Positions 1 through 5,819 of a stretch of DNA of 5,819 nt are shown in pieces. A model generated the notes under the pieces. The model made no database searches, was not told where the DNA came from, and saw only the letters and a program-made list of their open reading frames with translations. The stretch comes from Geopsychrobacter sp. Lineage in GTDB: Bacteria; Desulfobacterota; Desulfuromonadia; Desulfuromonadales; Geopsychrobacteraceae. Where the stretch lies: positions 1 through 5,819 of the forward strand of contig JAUXIR010000119.1 in assembly GCA_030620915.1 (NCBI GenBank), written 5' to 3'. Numbering within the stretch: the first letter of the stretch is position 1; every line of letters starts with the position of its first letter. A program made the position numbers and the translations under genes.

Positions 1-202
1 CATGATGCCGCTGATGAACGGCGATCTCAAGATTAAAACCCTGAAGAACAACACCCGAAGCCGCAATATTCCAGTCCTGCTTATGTCGTCAAAAATGCCA
101 GCTGAACTCCAGCAACTAGCAGATGCTGCCGGTGCCAATGGGATTATCTCAAAGCCCTTCACCCCATTCGGGCTGGTCCAGGCCGTTCGTAACTATCTTT
201 GA
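1..202 (+). CDS. Response regulator receiver domain, C-terminal part (5' truncated)
   Basis: The open frame enters from the left edge and stops at TGA 200-202, giving about 66 visible residues. It is the second half of a CheY-like receiver domain. It starts with MMPLMNG, the segment that normally follows the phospho-accepting Asp by one or two residues, so that Asp lies just outside the window. The PVLLMSSK segment carries the conserved Ser/Thr switch position, and GIISKPF carries the invariant Lys and the cis-Pro. The protein ends soon after the last receiver helix (LVQAVRNYL). It is therefore either a stand-alone receiver or a receiver at the C-terminus of a larger hybrid kinase or regulator; the window cannot tell which. 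A 55-bp gap separates it from the selenoprotein gene. The two could share a transcript, since I see no terminator between them, but no functional link is visible. Confidence 0.88.
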   Translation, partial: MMPLMNGDLKIKTLKNNTRSRNIPVLLMSSKMPAELQQLADAAGANGIISKPFTPFGLVQAVRNYL

Positions 203-214
203 AGCCGCTATACT
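186..214 (+). promoter_or_regulatory. Possible weak sigma-70 promoter upstream of the selenoprotein gene
   Basis: A TATACT hexamer at 209-214 resembles a -10 box. TTCGTA at 186-191, 17 bp upstream, is only a poor -35 match (3 of 6). Transcription would begin near 221, at the palindrome there. The gene could equally be read through from the upstream receiver gene. This is a pattern match only. Confidence 0.3.
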
Positions 215-220
215 TTGTGC

Positions 221-230
221 GAAACGTTTC
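221..230. repeat. Perfect 10-bp palindrome upstream of the selenoprotein gene
   Basis: GAAACGTTTC is its own reverse complement. It sits 27 bp before the ATG at 258 and just downstream of the candidate -10 box. Position and symmetry would suit a small operator, but no known regulator site is recognised and a 10-bp palindrome can occur by chance. Confidence 0.3.
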
Positions 231-257
231 AGCCCCCTGCCCAACAGGAGATAAGCG

Positions 258-908
258 ATGCGCTTAAATGCCCTGCTGTCAGCCATGAGTCAGGATTTTG
301 CCTCCAAGGCCGATCCCAAGGCACTGGCAATCATGAAAGAGACCCGCCAGCAACTGGAAGATTCGGGCCTGCATAAAGAGGCCCTGGGGTCCGGCGAACA
401 GATGACCGATTTCGTGCTGCTCGATTCTTCAAATAGCGAATTTTCAAGCCGTGAGGCACTAAAGAAAGGGCCTCTGCTACTTTGCTGGTATCGGGGAATC
501 TGGTGACCTTACTGCAATGCGGAGCTGGAGGCTCTGCAAGAGATTCTACCTGAAATCGAGAAAACCGGCACCACCATGGTCGCGATCTCGCCGATGCTAC
601 AAAAGTACGCCGGCAACCTGGTGCGGAATCTCGGCCTGAGCTTTCCCCTGCTGCTCGACCCAGACAATCTGCTGGCCAAGCAATTTCGCATGGTCTACAA
701 GCTACCCGATTCCCTCAAAGAGGTCTACCAGGGATTCGGCATTGATCTGGAACGCTTCAACGGCAATGCTCACTGGGAGCTGCCACTACCAGGACGTTTT
801 ATAATCGATCGCGACGGTACCCTGATCGATGCGGCGCTCTACCCGGATCACACCCAGAGGCCTGAACCCGAAGAGACCCTTGAGATCCTTAAAAAACTCA
901 CCGCTTGA
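258..908 (+). CDS. Peroxiredoxin-like (AhpC/TSA fold) selenoprotein, UxxC motif, Sec at residue 83
   Basis: One 217-codon frame (216 residues) is continuous if TGA 504-506 is read as selenocysteine. The start ATG 258 follows AGGAG (246-250) at 7 bp. The N-terminal helical part covers roughly residues 1-45. A thioredoxin-fold AhpC/TSA domain follows: strand LLLCWYRG, then W-U83-P-Y-C86-NAEL, where relatives typically read RGxWCPYCNxEL, so Sec replaces the first (peroxidatic-type) Cys. Then come VAISPM, the FPLLLDPDN segment and, near the C-terminus, PLPGRFIIDRDG followed by a helix. This last part matches the family's usual ending. The fold and motif indicate a thiol/selenol peroxidase or disulfide reductase, probably cytoplasmic since no signal peptide is seen. 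Substrate and reductant are unknown. The only other Cys, C76, lies on the strand before the motif. A SECIS-like hairpin lies just downstream of the TGA. Ordinary gene callers would give 258-506 and 576-908 as two ORFs. A nonsense pseudogene is the alternative, and I consider it unlikely. Confidence 0.92.
504..506 (+). other. In-frame UGA selenocysteine codon
   Basis: TGA lies between TGG (Trp82) and CCT TAC TGC (Pro-Tyr-Cys86). Homology to AhpC/TSA-like proteins continues in the same frame on both sides with no insertion or deletion. The position is that of the catalytic Cys in relatives (family knowledge), the usual place for Sec. Reading it requires SelA, SelB, SelC and SelD elsewhere in the genome; none is in this window. 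Confidence 0.9.
518..538 (+). promoter_or_regulatory. Bacterial SECIS-like mRNA hairpin
   Basis: Bases 518-525 (TGCGGAGC) pair with 531-538 (GCTCTGCA) to give an 8-bp stem with one G-U pair. The loop is the pentanucleotide UGGAG at 526-530. The loop begins 20 nt after the last base of the UGA. A compact stem with a small apical loop, a G within the first two loop positions and a UGA-to-loop distance of about 16-37 nt is what is known of bacterial SECIS elements that bind SelB. The hairpin lies inside the coding sequence (NAELEAL), as bacterial SECIS elements do. It was paired by hand and no folding energy was calculated. Confidence 0.82.
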
Positions 909-930
909 GAGAAAAGGCCGATCAGATAAC

Positions 931-968
931 AAAAGGCAACACCTGGAAAAATCAGGACGTTGCCTTTT
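931..968. terminator. Strong intrinsic terminator, probably bidirectional, between convergent genes
   Basis: AAAAGGCAAC (931-940) pairs perfectly with GTTGCCTTTT (959-968). Inside it, CCTG (942-945) pairs with CAGG (953-956), leaving a small A-rich loop. The stem ends in T runs on either strand. It lies 22 bp after the selenoprotein stop and 14 bp after the thioesterase stop on the opposite strand, so it can end both transcripts. Confidence 0.85.
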
Positions 969-982
969 GGGTTTAAGCGGCC

Positions 983-1381
983 TCAGCACAAAACAGCATC
1001 AATCTCGGCGGGCAGAAAAGGCCGGTTGCGCTCATTGAGTGCGGTGCCGATGATCAGCCCTTCGAGGATCAAAGCCCCGTCAGAATCCCGCACTATCTGC
1101 TGCCTGAAGGCGAACCTGAGTTTCGAGATCCGCTCCATGCGCGTCAAAACCGCGAAACGGTCTCCACTCACCAGTGAGCGGCGATAATCGAGTTCGGCCC
1201 TGATGACCACCAGATTAATCCGAGCCCTGGTCAACTCGGCAAAGTCGAGCCCCAGGTTTTTCAGAAATTCATGGCGACTATGCTCAAGGTAATGTTGATA
1301 GATGGCATTGTTCACCACCCCCTGCATGTCGCATTCATAATCCCGAACTTCAAACGACTGACAATGCTGCGATTCCGACAT
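983..1381 (-). CDS. Acyl-CoA thioesterase, 4HBT/YbgC-FcbC-like hotdog fold
   Basis: This encodes 132 residues, the normal size for a single hotdog-fold thioesterase. The start ATG at 1381 is chosen because AGGAG precedes it by 7 bp; a longer frame to 1426 lacks such a site. The N-terminus carries the family signature YECDMQGVVNNAIYQHYLEH-SR: D18 corresponds to the catalytic Asp of 4-hydroxybenzoyl-CoA thioesterase-type enzymes, followed by GVVNN and the hotdog helix with E33 and R36. Later segments such as LDYRRSLVSGD and the strand KLRFAFRQQIV are typical of the fold. The expected reaction is hydrolysis of an acyl-CoA thioester to free CoA and acid in the cytoplasm; the substrate cannot be read from sequence. 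It lies 63 bp downstream of the CoA-disulfide reductase gene on the same strand, probably in one operon, which suggests a link to CoA or thiol status (inference). Confidence 0.9.
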   Translation of the reverse strand: MSESQHCQSFEVRDYECDMQGVVNNAIYQHYLEHSRHEFLKNLGLDFAELTRARINLVVIRAELDYRRSLVSGDRFAVLTRMERISKLRFAFRQQIVRDSDGALILEGLIIGTALNERNRPFLPAEIDAVLC

Positions 1382-1444
1382 GAGCCATCTCCTGATTGTG
1401 TGACCTAACAGATCAGCAGACTTCAACAGAAACGGGATGAATCG

Positions 1445-3145
1445 TCAAGCGACCTGTTGCCTGGCAGCGGTTTCCAACTCGTAGGGCCAGGCAATCACTC
1501 CACCTTCAAGATAGCGAACTTTTTTGAATCCCGCCGCCAACAGTATCCGCGCGGCCTCATAACCACGTAGGCTCAACTTGCAAAAAGGCACAATTTCTCG
1601 ATCTGGGGGCAGCTCATGCAAACGTTCACGCAACTGCCCCAACGGGATCAGGATGGCCCCAGGGATCCGCACCTGCTCTGCTTCGGCCGGTGAACGGACA
1701 TCTAGCAGAATCATCGGCTGCAGCTGCTGCCGGCGTTGCTGAAGTTCGAGCGGGGTGTAACTGGCGGCCAAGCCGTCCAACTTGTTGCGCAGGGCATTGG
1801 CGGCCTGATGCAAGGGATCCATCGCAGTGGCGAAGGGGGGTGCGTAGGCCAGATCGAGTCGTGCCAGATCGTCGACCGTTCCGTTAAGGCTCAACAGAGA
1901 GACGATGACATTGATCCGCCCGGCAATCTCACCCGGCCCGGCCATCTGCGCGCCAAGCAGTTTCCGGCTGTTACGATCAGCGATCAGGCGGATAACGACC
2001 GGCTTCACCCCTGGATAAGCATGCACCCGGTCTGGTGCCGAGATCAGAACCGATTCAGCCGCGTAACCGGCCGCCGTTGCGTCACTGGCAGAAAGACCTG
2101 TCCGCGCAAGGCTTTGATCGAAGAGTTTAACAATCAGGGTCCCTAAAACCCCGGGGAAAAGGTCGCTTGAACCGCCAAGCTGATCCGCCAGGACTCGCCC
2201 CTGTCGGTTGGCCGTCGAGCCGAGTGGCAGATGGAGATGTTTACCCGTTTGCAACTGCACCACCTCGACACAGTCTCCAGCGGCAAATATCTGCGGGTCA
2301 CTGGTCCGCATCTGTGGGTCGACCAGAATCCCGCCGCTCTCTCCCAGCCGTAAACCGGCTGCAGCCGCCAATTCAGTCTCGGGGCGAACCCCAATCGCCA
2401 TGACCACCAGATCTGCGGCATAACTGCCACTCTTTGTCACCGCACGACAAACGCGCCCGGCCTCCCCCTCAAGACTCACCAGGCCTTCATTGAGACGCAG
2501 GTCGACCCCCTGTTTACTCAGTTCGCGCGCCGCCAGACCGGCAAGATCGGCGTCAACCACAGCGTCCAGAATCTGCCCTTGTCGCTCAAGCAGAGTGACA
2601 ATCAGGCCCCGTGCGACCAGCGCCTCGGCCATCTCGAGTCCGATCAACCCGGCACCAACTACAACCGCGCGCTTGGCGTCGCTAGCAAACCGATCAATCT
2701 TCTCGGCATCTTCCATGGTCTTGAGCGGCAACACTCCGGCCAGTTCCATCCCGGGAAGTGCCGGCATGATCGGCCGACAGCCGGTTGCCAGAACAAGATT
2801 GTCGTAACCTATATATTCACTGCTTTGACTTTCCAGATTACGCACCAGGACTCTCTGCTGCTGCCGATTGATCTCGACGGCCTCACAGCCGCTGAGGACC
2901 TTAATCCCCTTGACCCGCTCAAAGAAAGCTTCATCACGCGTCACGCCAGCCGGCGTTTGACGTACCTCATCCAGATCGTCAAATAGCCCCTCGACAAAAT
3001 ACGGCAGCGCGCAAGCACCGTAAGAGAAACGCTGACTTCGTTCGACCACAACAATTTCAGACTGACTATCGAGACGGCGCAGGCGCGAAGCGGCTTTCAT
3101 TCCGGCAGCGACTCCGCCGATAATCAGAATTCGTTTTTTGGGCAT
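1445..3145 (-). CDS. CoA-disulfide/persulfide reductase, FAD- and NAD(P)H-dependent, with C-terminal rhodanese domain
   Basis: This encodes 566 residues. Start ATG 3145 follows AGGAG at 7 bp and is preferred to an upstream ATG at 3184. Domains: FAD Rossmann motif IIGGVAAG (residues 8-15); a redox-active Cys at C45 in YGACALPYF; ATGCRP (120-125); NAD(P)H-binding GAGLIG (164-169); FAD motif AAGDC (288-292); a dimerisation domain with YAPPF (434-438) and MDPLHQAAN; and a rhodanese domain from about 470, with LDVRSPAE (481-488) and active-site C522 in FCKLSLRGYEAA. This is the CoADR-rhodanese fusion of the pyridine nucleotide-disulfide oxidoreductase family. Known members reduce CoA disulfide, CoA persulfide or polysulfide, using a single cysteine in the flavin domain while the rhodanese handles sulfane sulfur. 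C45 sits in a slightly variant motif (usual form roughly ANCGLPYY). Cytoplasmic, no signal peptide. First gene of a likely two-gene operon with the thioesterase. CoA disulfide versus persulfide as substrate cannot be decided from sequence. Confidence 0.93.
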   Translation of the reverse strand: MPKKRILIIGGVAAGMKAASRLRRLDSQSEIVVVERSQRFSYGACALPYFVEGLFDDLDEVRQTPAGVTRDEAFFERVKGIKVLSGCEAVEINRQQQRVLVRNLESQSSEYIGYDNLVLATGCRPIMPALPGMELAGVLPLKTMEDAEKIDRFASDAKRAVVVGAGLIGLEMAEALVARGLIVTLLERQGQILDAVVDADLAGLAARELSKQGVDLRLNEGLVSLEGEAGRVCRAVTKSGSYAADLVVMAIGVRPETELAAAAGLRLGESGGILVDPQMRTSDPQIFAAGDCVEVVQLQTGKHLHLPLGSTANRQGRVLADQLGGSSDLFPGVLGTLIVKLFDQSLARTGLSASDATAAGYAAESVLISAPDRVHAYPGVKPVVIRLIADRNSRKLLGAQMAGPGEIAGRINVIVSLLSLNGTVDDLARLDLAYAPPFATAMDPLHQAANALRNKLDGLAASYTPLELQQRRQQLQPMILLDVRSPAEAEQVRIPGAILIPLGQLRERLHELPPDREIVPFCKLSLRGYEAARILLAAGFKKVRYLEGGVIAWPYELETAARQQVA

Positions 3146-3331
3146 CGATTTTCTCCTGATGATCTTCTTTATGTATCTCCACAAAAATCTGGAAGTAAGG
3201 GCTCAAGAGACAGACTAGGGTAGGCGCACACCCACAGTCAATAGACATATATGAATACATAAATTAAAAGATCTATCTAGACAGCTTTTTACTACCCTGA
3301 TACCCTGCTGAAAATTACAACGGAGGCGACG
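3146..3331. promoter_or_regulatory. Divergent intergenic region between the CoA-disulfide reductase and DUF1847 genes
   Basis: This 186-bp AT-richer spacer holds the start regions of two outward-facing genes. For the minus strand, TTGACT (complement of 3236-3241) and TAGTCT (complement of 3212-3217) are 18 bp apart, a plausible -35 with a weak -10. For the plus strand, TAGACA (3278-3283) lies 17 bp before TACCCT (3301-3306), a fair -35 with a poor -10. The GGAGG at 3322-3326 serves the DUF1847 start. Neither promoter is certain. The CTACCCT motif recurs here on both strands and is listed separately. Confidence 0.45.
3217..3307. repeat. CTACCCT motif repeated in both orientations in the divergent promoter region
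   Basis: AGGGTAG at 3217-3223 is the reverse complement of CTACCCT at 3292-3298. A second TACCCTG follows at 3301-3307, in direct repeat with 3293-3299 at an 8-bp period. The copies flank or overlap both candidate promoters, as operator half-sites for a shared regulator might. The motif is short, so chance cannot be excluded. Confidence 0.35.
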
Positions 3332-4057
3332 ATGACAACGAAGAACAGTGTACCGGCCTGCACCAAATGTAGCCCCCTGTGGCAAAAACAGGGAACCACA
3401 AACTGCTGGAGTGAGCCAGGTGAGGGACCGGACCAACCCGCACATTGTCCGGCGGCCCTGAGTCCTGACACCATCAAGGAAACCTTCACAGAATATGAAG
3501 GGGAAGATGGGGATGCAAAACTGGCGCGGGTTGCCGCACAGGTCGAAGGCCTATGCTATCAACCGGTTCCGGGAAGCGACGCGGTCAATGCGCGCTGGAC
3601 ACGCGTTGAGGACACCGTTGCCCTCGCCAAACTTATGGGCTACCGCAAGGTAGGGATTGCGACCTGCATCGGGCTACTTGAGGAAAGTTCGCGCCTGGCG
3701 ACCATTCTTAGCGCTCAGGGGCTGGAACCTGTTTCAGTCTGCTGCAAGGCCGGTAGCCTGGATAAACTCTCCCTGGGTCTCAAGGAGGAAGAGAAGGTCC
3801 GCCCCGGAACCTTTGAACCGGCCTGTAACCCGATTGCCCAGGCGCGGGTATTGAACCAGCAGCAGACCGATATGAACCTGATTGTCGGCCTTTGCGTCGG
3901 CCATGACATGCTCTTTGCAAAACACTCCGCTGCGCCGGTTTCAACAATTGTCGTCAAGGACCGCGTGACCGGCCACAACCCGGCGGCAGTACTTTATGGT
4001 CAAAACTTCTATTTCAAACGTCTGCAAAAACAGCAGGTTATCCAGGTAGACGAATAA
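3332..4057 (+). CDS. DUF1847 family protein, cysteine-rich, probable metal-binding, function unknown
   Basis: This encodes 241 residues. Start ATG 3332 follows GGAGG (3322-3326) at 5 bp; the stop is TAA. I recognise the DUF1847 family by conserved blocks: GIATCIGLLEE (from residue 108), VSVCCKAGSLDK (134-145), ACNPIAQA (164-171), GLCVGHD (186-192) and KDRVTGHNP (209-217). The N-terminus has C10-x2-C13, C25 and C39, a likely zinc or other metal site. Further cysteines are C75, C112, C137, C138, C165 and C188, ten in all, several inside the most conserved blocks. No signal peptide or membrane segment is seen, so it should be a cytoplasmic soluble protein. The family has no established function that I know of. 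The cysteine pattern suggests metal or Fe-S binding or thiol redox chemistry (inference). It is divergent from the CoA-disulfide reductase and forms a single-gene unit ended by an intrinsic terminator. Confidence 0.88.
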   Translation: MTTKNSVPACTKCSPLWQKQGTTNCWSEPGEGPDQPAHCPAALSPDTIKETFTEYEGEDGDAKLARVAAQVEGLCYQPVPGSDAVNARWTRVEDTVALAKLMGYRKVGIATCIGLLEESSRLATILSAQGLEPVSVCCKAGSLDKLSLGLKEEEKVRPGTFEPACNPIAQARVLNQQQTDMNLIVGLCVGHDMLFAKHSAAPVSTIVVKDRVTGHNPAAVLYGQNFYFKRLQKQQVIQVDE

Positions 4058-4120
4058 CAGAGACGAAAATAAATGCACCAGCAAGAATACCACGGTACGA
4101 CGAAGGGCTTTTGAAGCAAC

Positions 4121-4146
4121 ACCGGCATCATTTGCCGCGTATTTTT
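4121..4146 (+). terminator. Intrinsic terminator after the DUF1847 gene
   Basis: CGGCA (4123-4127) pairs with TGCCG (4133-4137) around a TCATT loop. Two more base pairs (A4121-T4140, C4122-G4139) extend it past a bulged C. Five T residues follow at 4142-4146. It lies 63 bp after the DUF1847 stop and just before the rrf2 promoter, so it insulates the two units. Confidence 0.72.
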
Positions 4147-4159
4147 CTGTGAAATATTC

Positions 4160-4189
4160 TTGACACAACTGGTCGGCTTTACCTATAGT
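4160..4189 (+). promoter_or_regulatory. Sigma-70 promoter of the rrf2-larE unit
   Basis: A consensus -35 TTGACA (4160-4165) is followed, after 18 bp, by TATAGT (4184-4189), a near-consensus -10 (5 of 6). Initiation is expected near 4196, giving a leader of under 30 nt before the ATG at 4223. Rrf2 regulators usually control their own promoters. GAC (4162-4164) and GTC (4172-4174) form a short dyad over the -35 that could be part of an operator, though this is weak. Confidence 0.8.
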
Positions 4190-4222
4190 TTTAAGATAAG
4201 AAAATCATGGAGGTATAACCAG

Positions 4223-4711
4223 ATGAAGCTTTCAACCAAGAGCCGCTACGGTGTTCGGGCCATGTTCGACATGGCCTACCACGCAGGCACCCTGCCTGCA
4301 CAAATCAAAGACATCTCGCGGCGGCAACAAATCTCCCCGCGCTACCTTGAACAGATTTTTCAAGACTTGAAAAAGGCCGGCCTCCTGAATAGCCGACGTG
4401 GCCCTCAGGGCGGCTACAGCCTCGCCCGCCCTGCCGACGAAATCACGGTGAAGGACATTATTCTGGCCGCCGAAGGCGAGTTGGAGCTGGTGAATTGCGT
4501 AAAGGGCTTGCGTAAGACAAAAGGCACCGAAGAGGACGCAGGCGCAGCCTGTCAGTTTGACAACCGATGCGTCACCCAACATATCTGGAGCAATGCCAGC
4601 AAAATTCTCGGTGACTACTTTTCAAGCCTGTCATTGAAAACACTTTGCGAGCAAGCCAAGGAGATGGGTCTCGAAAAAGAACTCGATCACCGCTTCATGT
4701 ACTTTATCTGA
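4223..4711 (+). CDS. Rrf2/IscR-family transcriptional regulator with three candidate Fe-S cysteines
   Basis: This encodes 162 residues. ATG 4223 is chosen over an earlier ATG (4160) because the protein then begins MKLSTKSRYGVRAM, the canonical Rrf2 N-terminus, and GGAGG (4209-4213) lies 9 bp upstream. The earlier start would also fall inside the promoter. A winged helix-turn-helix spans about residues 1-75: DISRRQQISPRYLEQIF is the recognition region and RRGPQGGYSLARP the wing. The C-terminal part has C92, C110 and C116 followed by H120 and W122, comparable to the three Cys and one His that hold the [2Fe-2S] cluster in IscR. The first gap is 17 residues rather than the 5 of IscR, while the second is the usual 5. 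Expected role: a cytoplasmic dimeric repressor or activator sensing Fe-S, redox or sulfur status, probably acting on its own promoter and so on larE downstream (inference). Confidence 0.92.
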   Translation: MKLSTKSRYGVRAMFDMAYHAGTLPAQIKDISRRQQISPRYLEQIFQDLKKAGLLNSRRGPQGGYSLARPADEITVKDIILAAEGELELVNCVKGLRKTKGTEEDAGAACQFDNRCVTQHIWSNASKILGDYFSSLSLKTLCEQAKEMGLEKELDHRFMYFI

Positions 4712-4755
4712 CGGCATCCCATGAGTATATTGCGAGTACATCTCAGCTGAAACGA

Positions 4756-5583
4756 ATGAACAAAATGTCTCTGCACGCAAAAATGGCTAAACTGCAGTCC
4801 CTGCTGGCTGAAATGGAACAGGTCGTGGTCGCTTTTTCCGGCGGGGTCGACTCTACCTTCCTGCTCAAGGTTGCCAGCGACTGCCTCGGCGCACAAAAGG
4901 TGGTCGCTCTCACCGCGACCTCCCCCACCTACCCCGATTTCGAATATCAGCAGGCCTGTGAGCTCGCGCGTGAGCTCGGCGTAGAACAGATTGTGATCGA
5001 GAGTAACGAACTCGAGATCCCCGGCTTTGCCGACAACCCGCCACGACGCTGTTATCACTGCAAGTACGAGCTGTTCAGCCTCTGCCTGGAGAAGGCAGAA
5101 GAACGCGGTTTTGCGACGGTGCTCGACGGTTCCAACCTGGATGATCTGGCCGATTATCGTCCGGGTCGCGATGCGGTTAAAGAGTTGCAGATCCGCTCGC
5201 CCCTGCTCGAGGCCGGACTCGGCAAGGATGATATCCGTGCATTGAGCCGAGAACTCGGCCTCAAGACCTGGGACAAACAGGCCTTTGCCTGCCTTTCATC
5301 CCGCTTCCCCTACGGGACCAAGATCACAGTCGAACGCTTGCGCCAAATCGACAGTTGTGAGACATTTCTGCGTGAGAACGGCTTCAGAAACTATCGCGTC
5401 CGTTACCACGATGAGATTGCGCGTATCGAGGTTGCCCCTGAGGAGATCCAAAGACTCCTGGACAACCAGCTGCGCGACAGTTTGGTCGCAACATTCAAAC
5501 AGGCGGGCTTCACCTTTATCACCCTCGACCTGCAGGGTTATCGCACCGGCAGCATGAATGCTACCCTGCCCAAGAACCCGTAA
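4756..5583 (+). CDS. larE: LarE family ATP-dependent sulfur transferase (three-cysteine type)
   Basis: From ATG 4756 this encodes 275 residues, normal for LarE. No good ribosome-binding site precedes any candidate start (ATG 4756, 4765 or 4783), so the exact N-terminus is uncertain; all retain the catalytic domain. Motifs: PP-loop SGGVDS (28-33) for ATP pyrophosphatase chemistry, RRCYHCK with C99 and C102, GSNLDDLADYRPGRDA (125-140), and ACLSSRFPYG with C179. LarE adenylates the pyridinium dicarboxylate mononucleotide precursor and inserts sulfur to build the nickel-pincer cofactor first described for lactate racemase. Some LarE proteins sacrifice one Cys, while three-Cys types are reported to hold a [4Fe-4S] cluster that carries the sulfur. 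The C99/C102/C179 set fits the latter. No larA, larB or larC is in view, so the client enzyme is unknown. It lies 44 bp after the rrf2 stop and is probably cotranscribed, with coupling possibly compensating for the weak initiation signal. Confidence 0.9.
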   Translation: MNKMSLHAKMAKLQSLLAEMEQVVVAFSGGVDSTFLLKVASDCLGAQKVVALTATSPTYPDFEYQQACELARELGVEQIVIESNELEIPGFADNPPRRCYHCKYELFSLCLEKAEERGFATVLDGSNLDDLADYRPGRDAVKELQIRSPLLEAGLGKDDIRALSRELGLKTWDKQAFACLSSRFPYGTKITVERLRQIDSCETFLRENGFRNYRVRYHDEIARIEVAPEEIQRLLDNQLRDSLVATFKQAGFTFITLDLQGYRTGSMNATLPKNP

Positions 5584-5709
5584 GGGGTGAGGCGGAAAAG
5601 CGATTAACTATTTAATCAAAAGCAGGGCCTAATTCCCCGCTGCTTACGGCGGGATAGTTTGTATTAACGCGAGGACTTGCTCCTCACCCTTCACCCCTCA
5701 CTCCTCACT
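5583..5709. repeat. Repeat-rich intergenic element with inverted ends and internal hairpins
   Basis: AAGGGGTGAGG at the larE stop (5582-5592) is, with one bulged G, the reverse complement of CCTCACCCTT at 5682-5691. Between them lie GATTAA/TTAATC (5602-5607/5612-5617, 4-nt loop), AAGCAG/CTGCTT (5620-5625/5639-5644) and the competing CCCGC/GCGGG (5636-5640/5649-5653). No strong T run follows any hairpin, so a classical terminator for larE is not certain. The segment may act as an RNA structure at the transcript end or be a small intergenic repeat. No gene is seen in it. Confidence 0.5.
5682..5709. repeat. Four tandem copies of a CTCAC-type heptamer
   Basis: The copies are CCTCACC, CTTCACC, CCTCACT and CCTCACT, head to tail with a 7-bp period and consensus CYTCACY. 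They end 22 bp before the next ATG. Degenerate heptamers of this kind are familiar intergenic repeats in some bacterial genomes. Copy number may vary between strains by slippage. Confidence 0.75.
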
Positions 5710-5731
5710 CGCTGAACCAACGGGAGGCGTC

Positions 5732-5819
5732 ATGCCGAAGAACAGTGCCCTGCTCGCCGTCTGCTTTGTTGGAGGGATGCTGGGTGGTCTGGCCTGCAGT
5801 CTCTTTATCTGGATGCTGG
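5732..5819 (+). CDS. Small membrane or exported protein, N-terminus only (3' truncated)
   Basis: ATG 5732 follows GGGAGG (5722-5727) at 4 bp, a strong ribosome-binding site. The 29 visible residues begin MPKNSALLAVCFVGG and continue as a hydrophobic stretch with small-residue GG pairs (MLGGLACSLFIWML). This looks like one transmembrane helix or an uncleaved signal anchor with a short positive N-terminus (K3). Cysteines fall at residues 11 and 22; L-A-C at 20-22 is lipobox-like, but the residues that follow are again hydrophobic, so a lipoprotein is unlikely. The family cannot be identified from this fragment. Confidence 0.7.
   Translation, partial: MPKNSALLAVCFVGGMLGGLACSLFIWML

Follow-up and report, generated by a model that had tools for sequence, protein, structure and literature searches.

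The open reading frame at positions 258 to 908 (+) of a 5,819-nucleotide stretch of Geopsychrobacter sp. DNA (NCBI GenBank assembly GCA_030620915.1, contig JAUXIR010000119.1, positions 1 to 5,819; hereafter the window) most probably encodes a selenoprotein, in which an in-frame UGA codon would be read as selenocysteine (Sec, U) by means of SelB and a downstream hairpin. The product is predicted to have a peroxiredoxin fold and likely acts as a thioredoxin-like oxidoreductase with a UxxC motif. The source assembly comprises 2.04 Mb in 378 contigs, is 70% complete and contains the window as contig C366.

An interrupted frame and its conserved TGA codon

The frame is unbroken except for TGA at 504-506 and closes with a terminal TGA at 906-908. 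Read through, it yields 216 residues, with the UGA at residue 83 (U83) within WYRGIWUPYC. A preliminary description of this DNA had proposed one frame broken only by TGA, and its coordinates, frame, residue count and position of U83 all proved exact. Homology was said to continue on both sides of the TGA, and the Pfam domain AhpC-TSA indeed spans residues 46-190 across it without interruption (E 4.3e-21); the 3′ piece alone gave 1.4e-12 and the 5′ piece alone had no Pfam match. Domain and fold both place the protein in the AhpC/TSA (peroxiredoxin fold) superfamily. Five NCBIfam models were listed for the read-through product, and none attained its cut-off. SelL-related redox protein (NF040769) was rejected as an identity, with 40.5 bits against a curated cut-off of 120. 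The Rfam scan of the window returned nothing up to E 5. The features of the locus are as follows, where SECIS denotes a selenocysteine insertion sequence.

246..250 (+): likely ribosome-binding site AGGAG, with 7 nt between it and the ATG (sequence)
258..908 (+): predicted selenoprotein coding sequence, 216 residues, U83 (frame, Pfam, relatives)
504..506 (+): in-frame TGA, predicted Sec codon for U83 (conservation in relatives)
513..515 (+): TGC, Cys86, second residue of UxxC (alignment rows)
518..538 (+): hairpin with a stem of 9 bp and a GGA loop at 527-529, predicted to be a bacterial SECIS (folding)
930..969 (no strand assigned): strong inverted repeat 3′ of the gene, terminator-like on both strands (z -5.0 and -6.6)

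Relatives were collected from 60 genomes, including the source genome, and copies with E < 1e-40 were regarded as close. Some match at E <= 0.001 was present in 52 of the 60 genomes, and a close copy occurred in 16, among them six of the eight congeners. TGA stood in the same motif in all 16 genomes with a close copy and in 17/17 copies read (16 close, one distant). In a scan of named genomes, at least 584 stretches matched, at least 560 of which encoded a relative. Among the best 80 loci, the residue at the U83 position was Cys in 72 and TGA in eight, a ratio that favours Cys copies because one of the two scan patterns contained WCPYC. The eight TGA loci comprised five deltaproteobacterial or desulfobacterial records and metagenome-assembled genomes of Thermodesulfovibrionia, Rokubacteria and Bacillota. 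Thus, Cys pairs with the UGA in homologs, and the TGA lies at the first Cys of the CxxC motif, as had been suggested. An even sample of the phylum gave matches at E <= 1e-20 in 19 of 297 genomes, with TGA at 18 of the 20 places listed. Eighteen loci were new from this sample (L149-L166): 15 had the motif with TGA, two had it with Cys, and the motif was not found in L164, which bears two TGA and one TAA.

The comparison set contained 36 non-duplicate TGA copies and 72 Cys homologs. The Sec count excludes L052 and L055, apparent duplicates of L005 and L014, and the hairpin counts exclude L020 and L165 (TGA, distant clade) as well as L157 and L166 (Cys). Cys86 was kept in all 36 Sec rows and all 73 Cys rows, and purifying selection was detected on both sides of the TGA. 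L020 (G055) and L165 (G303) come from a remote AhpC/TSA clade that has TGA in RGxWUPYC and lacks the same hairpin; this clade may be a second Sec subfamily.

Standard annotation splits such genes and loses the catalytic residue, as had been anticipated: 26 of the 36 database proteins matched were fragments of 120-130 residues starting behind the U. One such fragment is recorded for Desulfopila sp. IMCC35008 as 'redoxin domain-containing protein', and the corresponding DNA carries the TGA.

The ribosome-binding site described earlier is present, and GGAGG-type sites precede several congener copies. The proposal that the gene has its own terminator held in part. A simple terminator scan found none, and the inverted repeat at 930-969 is strong (-21.2 kcal/mol, z -5.0); it reads on either strand between convergent genes, so its role as terminator of this gene is plausible.

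Hairpin constraint and selenocysteine machinery

The hairpin at 518-538 has nine pairs and a GGA loop and folds at -13.4 kcal/mol; its stem begins 11 nt after the TGA, and 20 nt separate the TGA from the loop. Bacterial SECIS elements are described in PMC1088965 as having a small apical loop with G, and the present hairpin lies just 3′ of the UGA with a G in such a loop. RNA constraint was separated from protein constraint by synonymous recoding of each copy with its own codon usage. The window hairpin scored z -3.1 against its recodings. The mean z was -2.70 in the 36 Sec copies (32 below -1.5) versus 0.06 in the 72 Cys copies (five below -1.5). In a first run, the mean was -2.77 for 23 Sec copies (the distant L020 among them) versus 0.08 for Cys. 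The SECIS-like hairpin of the preliminary description is present and, in TGA copies, far more stable than synonymous recodings.

The six inner stem pairs form in 33 to 36 of the 36 Sec copies. Stem codons differed sharply between the two forms, namely GCT for Ala(+9) in 34/35 Sec versus 8/65 Cys copies (Fisher 6e-18), GAG for Glu(+6) in 35/35 versus 25/67 (2e-11) and CTG for Leu(+7) in 34/36 versus 23/68 (6e-10), although these p-values overstate independence because the sequences are related. Only together with Sec are the stem-building codons fixed. Bacterial SECIS elements are often nonfunctional in other species.

The genes for Sec decoding were recovered in part. selB and selD sit together on contig C335, both above their cut-offs, and a C-terminal SelA tail resembling that of congener G007 is encoded between selB and the contig end. 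Across 21 genomes, including the source genome, selA exceeded its cut-off in 19 (seven of eight congeners) and selC in 18 (six of eight congeners). The selD gene of this genome, L041 (G000:C335), at 465-1385 (-), has its own in-frame TGA in SSGUAAK and is itself a predicted selenoprotein.

Active site and competing explanations

Selenocysteine at U83 is very likely on the evidence of conservation, hairpin and machinery. SelB, on binding the 518-538 hairpin, would decode the UGA at 504-506 as Sec. The selenolate of U83 would attack a disulfide (or a hydroperoxide), and Cys86 would resolve the product to an intramolecular selenenylsulfide, which would be reduced again by a thiol of the cell or a donor of the thioredoxin type.

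The peroxiredoxin-like identity proposed earlier holds for the fold and fails for the active site. The best structural match was AhpE, and the top-ranked folds were peroxiredoxins, with ResA chains lower. The canonical peroxiredoxin motif PxxxTxxC(U) is replaced by RGIWUPYC, in which U83 falls at the Thr of PxxxTxxC, where ResA has its first Cys, and Cys86 lines up with the Cys that is peroxidatic in 5epf. As U83 lies off the peroxidatic position, 'peroxiredoxin' names the fold and not the active site, and a thioredoxin-like selenoreductase is favoured over a canonical peroxidase.

Alternatively, the selenoprotein may act as a peroxidase, with U83 or Cys86 attacking organic hydroperoxides or H2O2 and the second of the two resolving; we consider this possible but unlikely. 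The fold, the AhpE match and the position of Cys86 are consistent with such activity, and the source names of some homologs are alkyl hydroperoxide reductase or thioredoxin-dependent peroxiredoxin. However, PxxxTxxC has lost its Pro and Thr throughout: 36/36 Sec rows have R79 and U83 in their place, and 73/73 Cys rows have R79 and Cys there (rows were located via RGxW, a motif not seen in one of 98 loci). Furthermore, a proline, P178, seems to be placed where 5epf has Arg, a position obtained by joining two HMMER segments; Pro occurs there in 29/36 Sec rows and 65/73 Cys rows.

Several observations weigh against the assignment as a Sec-decoding UxxC oxidoreductase. Two of the eight congeners (G001, G008) lack a close copy and have distant matches only, and the G005 copy (L008, G005:C3) has an extra TAA at codon 47, reflecting either a decaying gene or a sequencing error. 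Dinucleotide shuffling gave only moderate z values for four folded stretches (-2.09, -0.56, -2.50 and -1.53), and the hairpin was not unusual for the one at -0.56. Four of the 36 Sec copies failed the cut of z < -1.5, a few Sec copies fold in another register, and the distant TGA copies L020 and L165 lack such a hairpin. Regarding the machinery, selA was seen as the C-terminal tail only and a SelA profile search of the genome matched nothing; selC (tRNA-Sec) went undetected in this assembly, which is 70% complete and in which three weak tRNA-Sec matches were tRNA-Trp, -Leu and -Phe. The proposed mechanism is based on alignment.

A nonsense mutation or a sequencing or assembly error, with the gene a pseudogene, would fit an incomplete assembly of 378 contigs and the additional TAA in one congener copy. 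This explanation is highly improbable, as 36 non-duplicate copies share the TGA, their RNA hairpin is under selection and purifying selection acts on both sides; the conservation by itself already makes it very unlikely, and recurrence across many separate assemblies indicates that the TGA is not a sequencing error. Reading of UGA as another residue, in a Trp or Gly code variant, scarcely merits consideration: Trp stands at the U83 position (WWPYC) in two of 120 homologs checked, one being P0004, and P0003 has Arg, but the Trp rows are known as proteins only and may be code 4 gene calls, the tRNA-Trp found bears anticodon CCA, UGA otherwise acts as a stop (two other window genes end in TGA), selB and selD are in the genome, and the hairpin accompanies TGA and not Cys.

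Known relatives, gene neighbourhood and evolution

The protein probably belongs, as a new member, to a selenoprotein kind that is already known. The literature cited comprised PMC13188914, PMC9312934, PMC2398784, PMC1088965, PMC1794560, PMC12013277, PMC10460364 and PMC1914089. The review tables list a 'Prx-like thiol:disulfide oxidoreductase' (PF00578, UxxC/UxxU, example WP_010940744.1), and the 2006 tables place such selenoproteins in Geobacter, Desulfotalea and Syntrophus; among the six Desulfuromonas acetoxidans selenoproteins given there, none is of this type. As UxxC Prx-like selenoproteins have been in print since 2006 at the latest, the window protein is a new member and not a new kind. 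It shares with them, as they are described, the AhpC/TSA domain (PF00578) and Sec as the first residue of UxxC. The window subfamily has a helical N-terminal extension of approximately 40 residues and the motif RGxWUPYC, and was likened to these selenoproteins by description and not by the sequence of WP_010940744.1. A UPYC subfamily in the order Desulfuromonadales was not found named in the literature, a search outside which lay supplements and most subscription journals, so that its absence is unproven.

Other relatives share some of these properties. The Cys 'peroxiredoxin-like family protein' of proteobacteria, cyanobacteria, bacilli and others has the same motif (RGxWCPYC) and length, with full-length similarity (33-42% among 30 listed of 66 plasmid rows), but has Cys for Sec and lacks the selected hairpin after it. 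The Sec-containing peroxiredoxin (TxxU) has a homologous fold and motif position; its Sec is peroxidatic and occupies the last motif position, whereas that of the window protein lies three residues earlier, and a 2007 paper treats TxxU and UxxC as homologous but shifted. A cd02970 peroxiredoxin-like selenoprotein appears in the review with UxxS and not UxxC. In ResA-type thiol-disulfide oxidoreductases, W-C-x-x-C is in register with U83 and Cys86, with P-L-P before the next strand, but peroxiredoxins rank above ResA chains as the fold of the window protein. CgAhp (NCgl0877) of Corynebacterium glutamicum, annotated as Ahp with CxxC, is described as mainly a disulfide oxidoreductase for peroxidases and a weak peroxidase; it differs in its motif (CPGC, Cys 42/45), and it serves as a working analogue by description, not by sequence.

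Gene context was compared over 24 stretches. Genes for a receiver domain, DUF1847, Rrf2 and LarE recur around the genus copies, whereas similar reading frames outside the genus are scattered (DUF1847-like in L143, receiver-like in L054 and L057, and some others of the genus set in L139), and thus the context gives no partner. In the window, 1445-3145 (-) encodes a flavoprotein that resembles CoA-disulfide reductases and has a rhodanese domain fused at its C-terminus, with Cys at the relevant residue in SYGACALPY; a Sec form of the CoA-disulfide reductase family is listed in the review. A DUF1847 protein (PF08901, 1.6e-59) with a Cys-rich N-terminal stretch is encoded at 3332-4057 (+). Its gene directly follows the selenoprotein gene in G002 (L132), and two minus-strand genes intervene in the window. 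An Rrf2-type regulator and then a LarE-type sacrificial sulfur transferase are encoded at 4223-5583 (+), an order kept around the genus copies.

A tree of 117 rows calls for seven or more changes of the Sec label, four of which are forced by well supported branches alone (bootstrap not settled); as reconstructed, it requires that Sec and Cys replaced each other repeatedly. P0002, a Cys copy with 71% identity to the window protein, is placed inside the genus clade and likely represents a Sec-to-Cys change. Tentatively, and with less confidence than in any peroxidase activity, we suggest that such switching was accompanied each time by a SECIS written solely by synonymous codons into the conserved [A/L]-E-L-E-A-L, as opposed to the spread of a single ancestral Sec gene by transfer. 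If true, this conserved helix would pre-adapt the mRNA to become a SECIS, which would allow one change from TGY to TGA to be captured.

The gene illustrates how a catalytic residue vanishes from annotation when an automated procedure cuts a gene in two. The family has numerous members of both the Sec and the Cys form, as well as an RNA element that is separable from the peptide, and would be a good natural set for asking what benefit selenium brings to a UxxC enzyme and how a SECIS originates inside a coding sequence.
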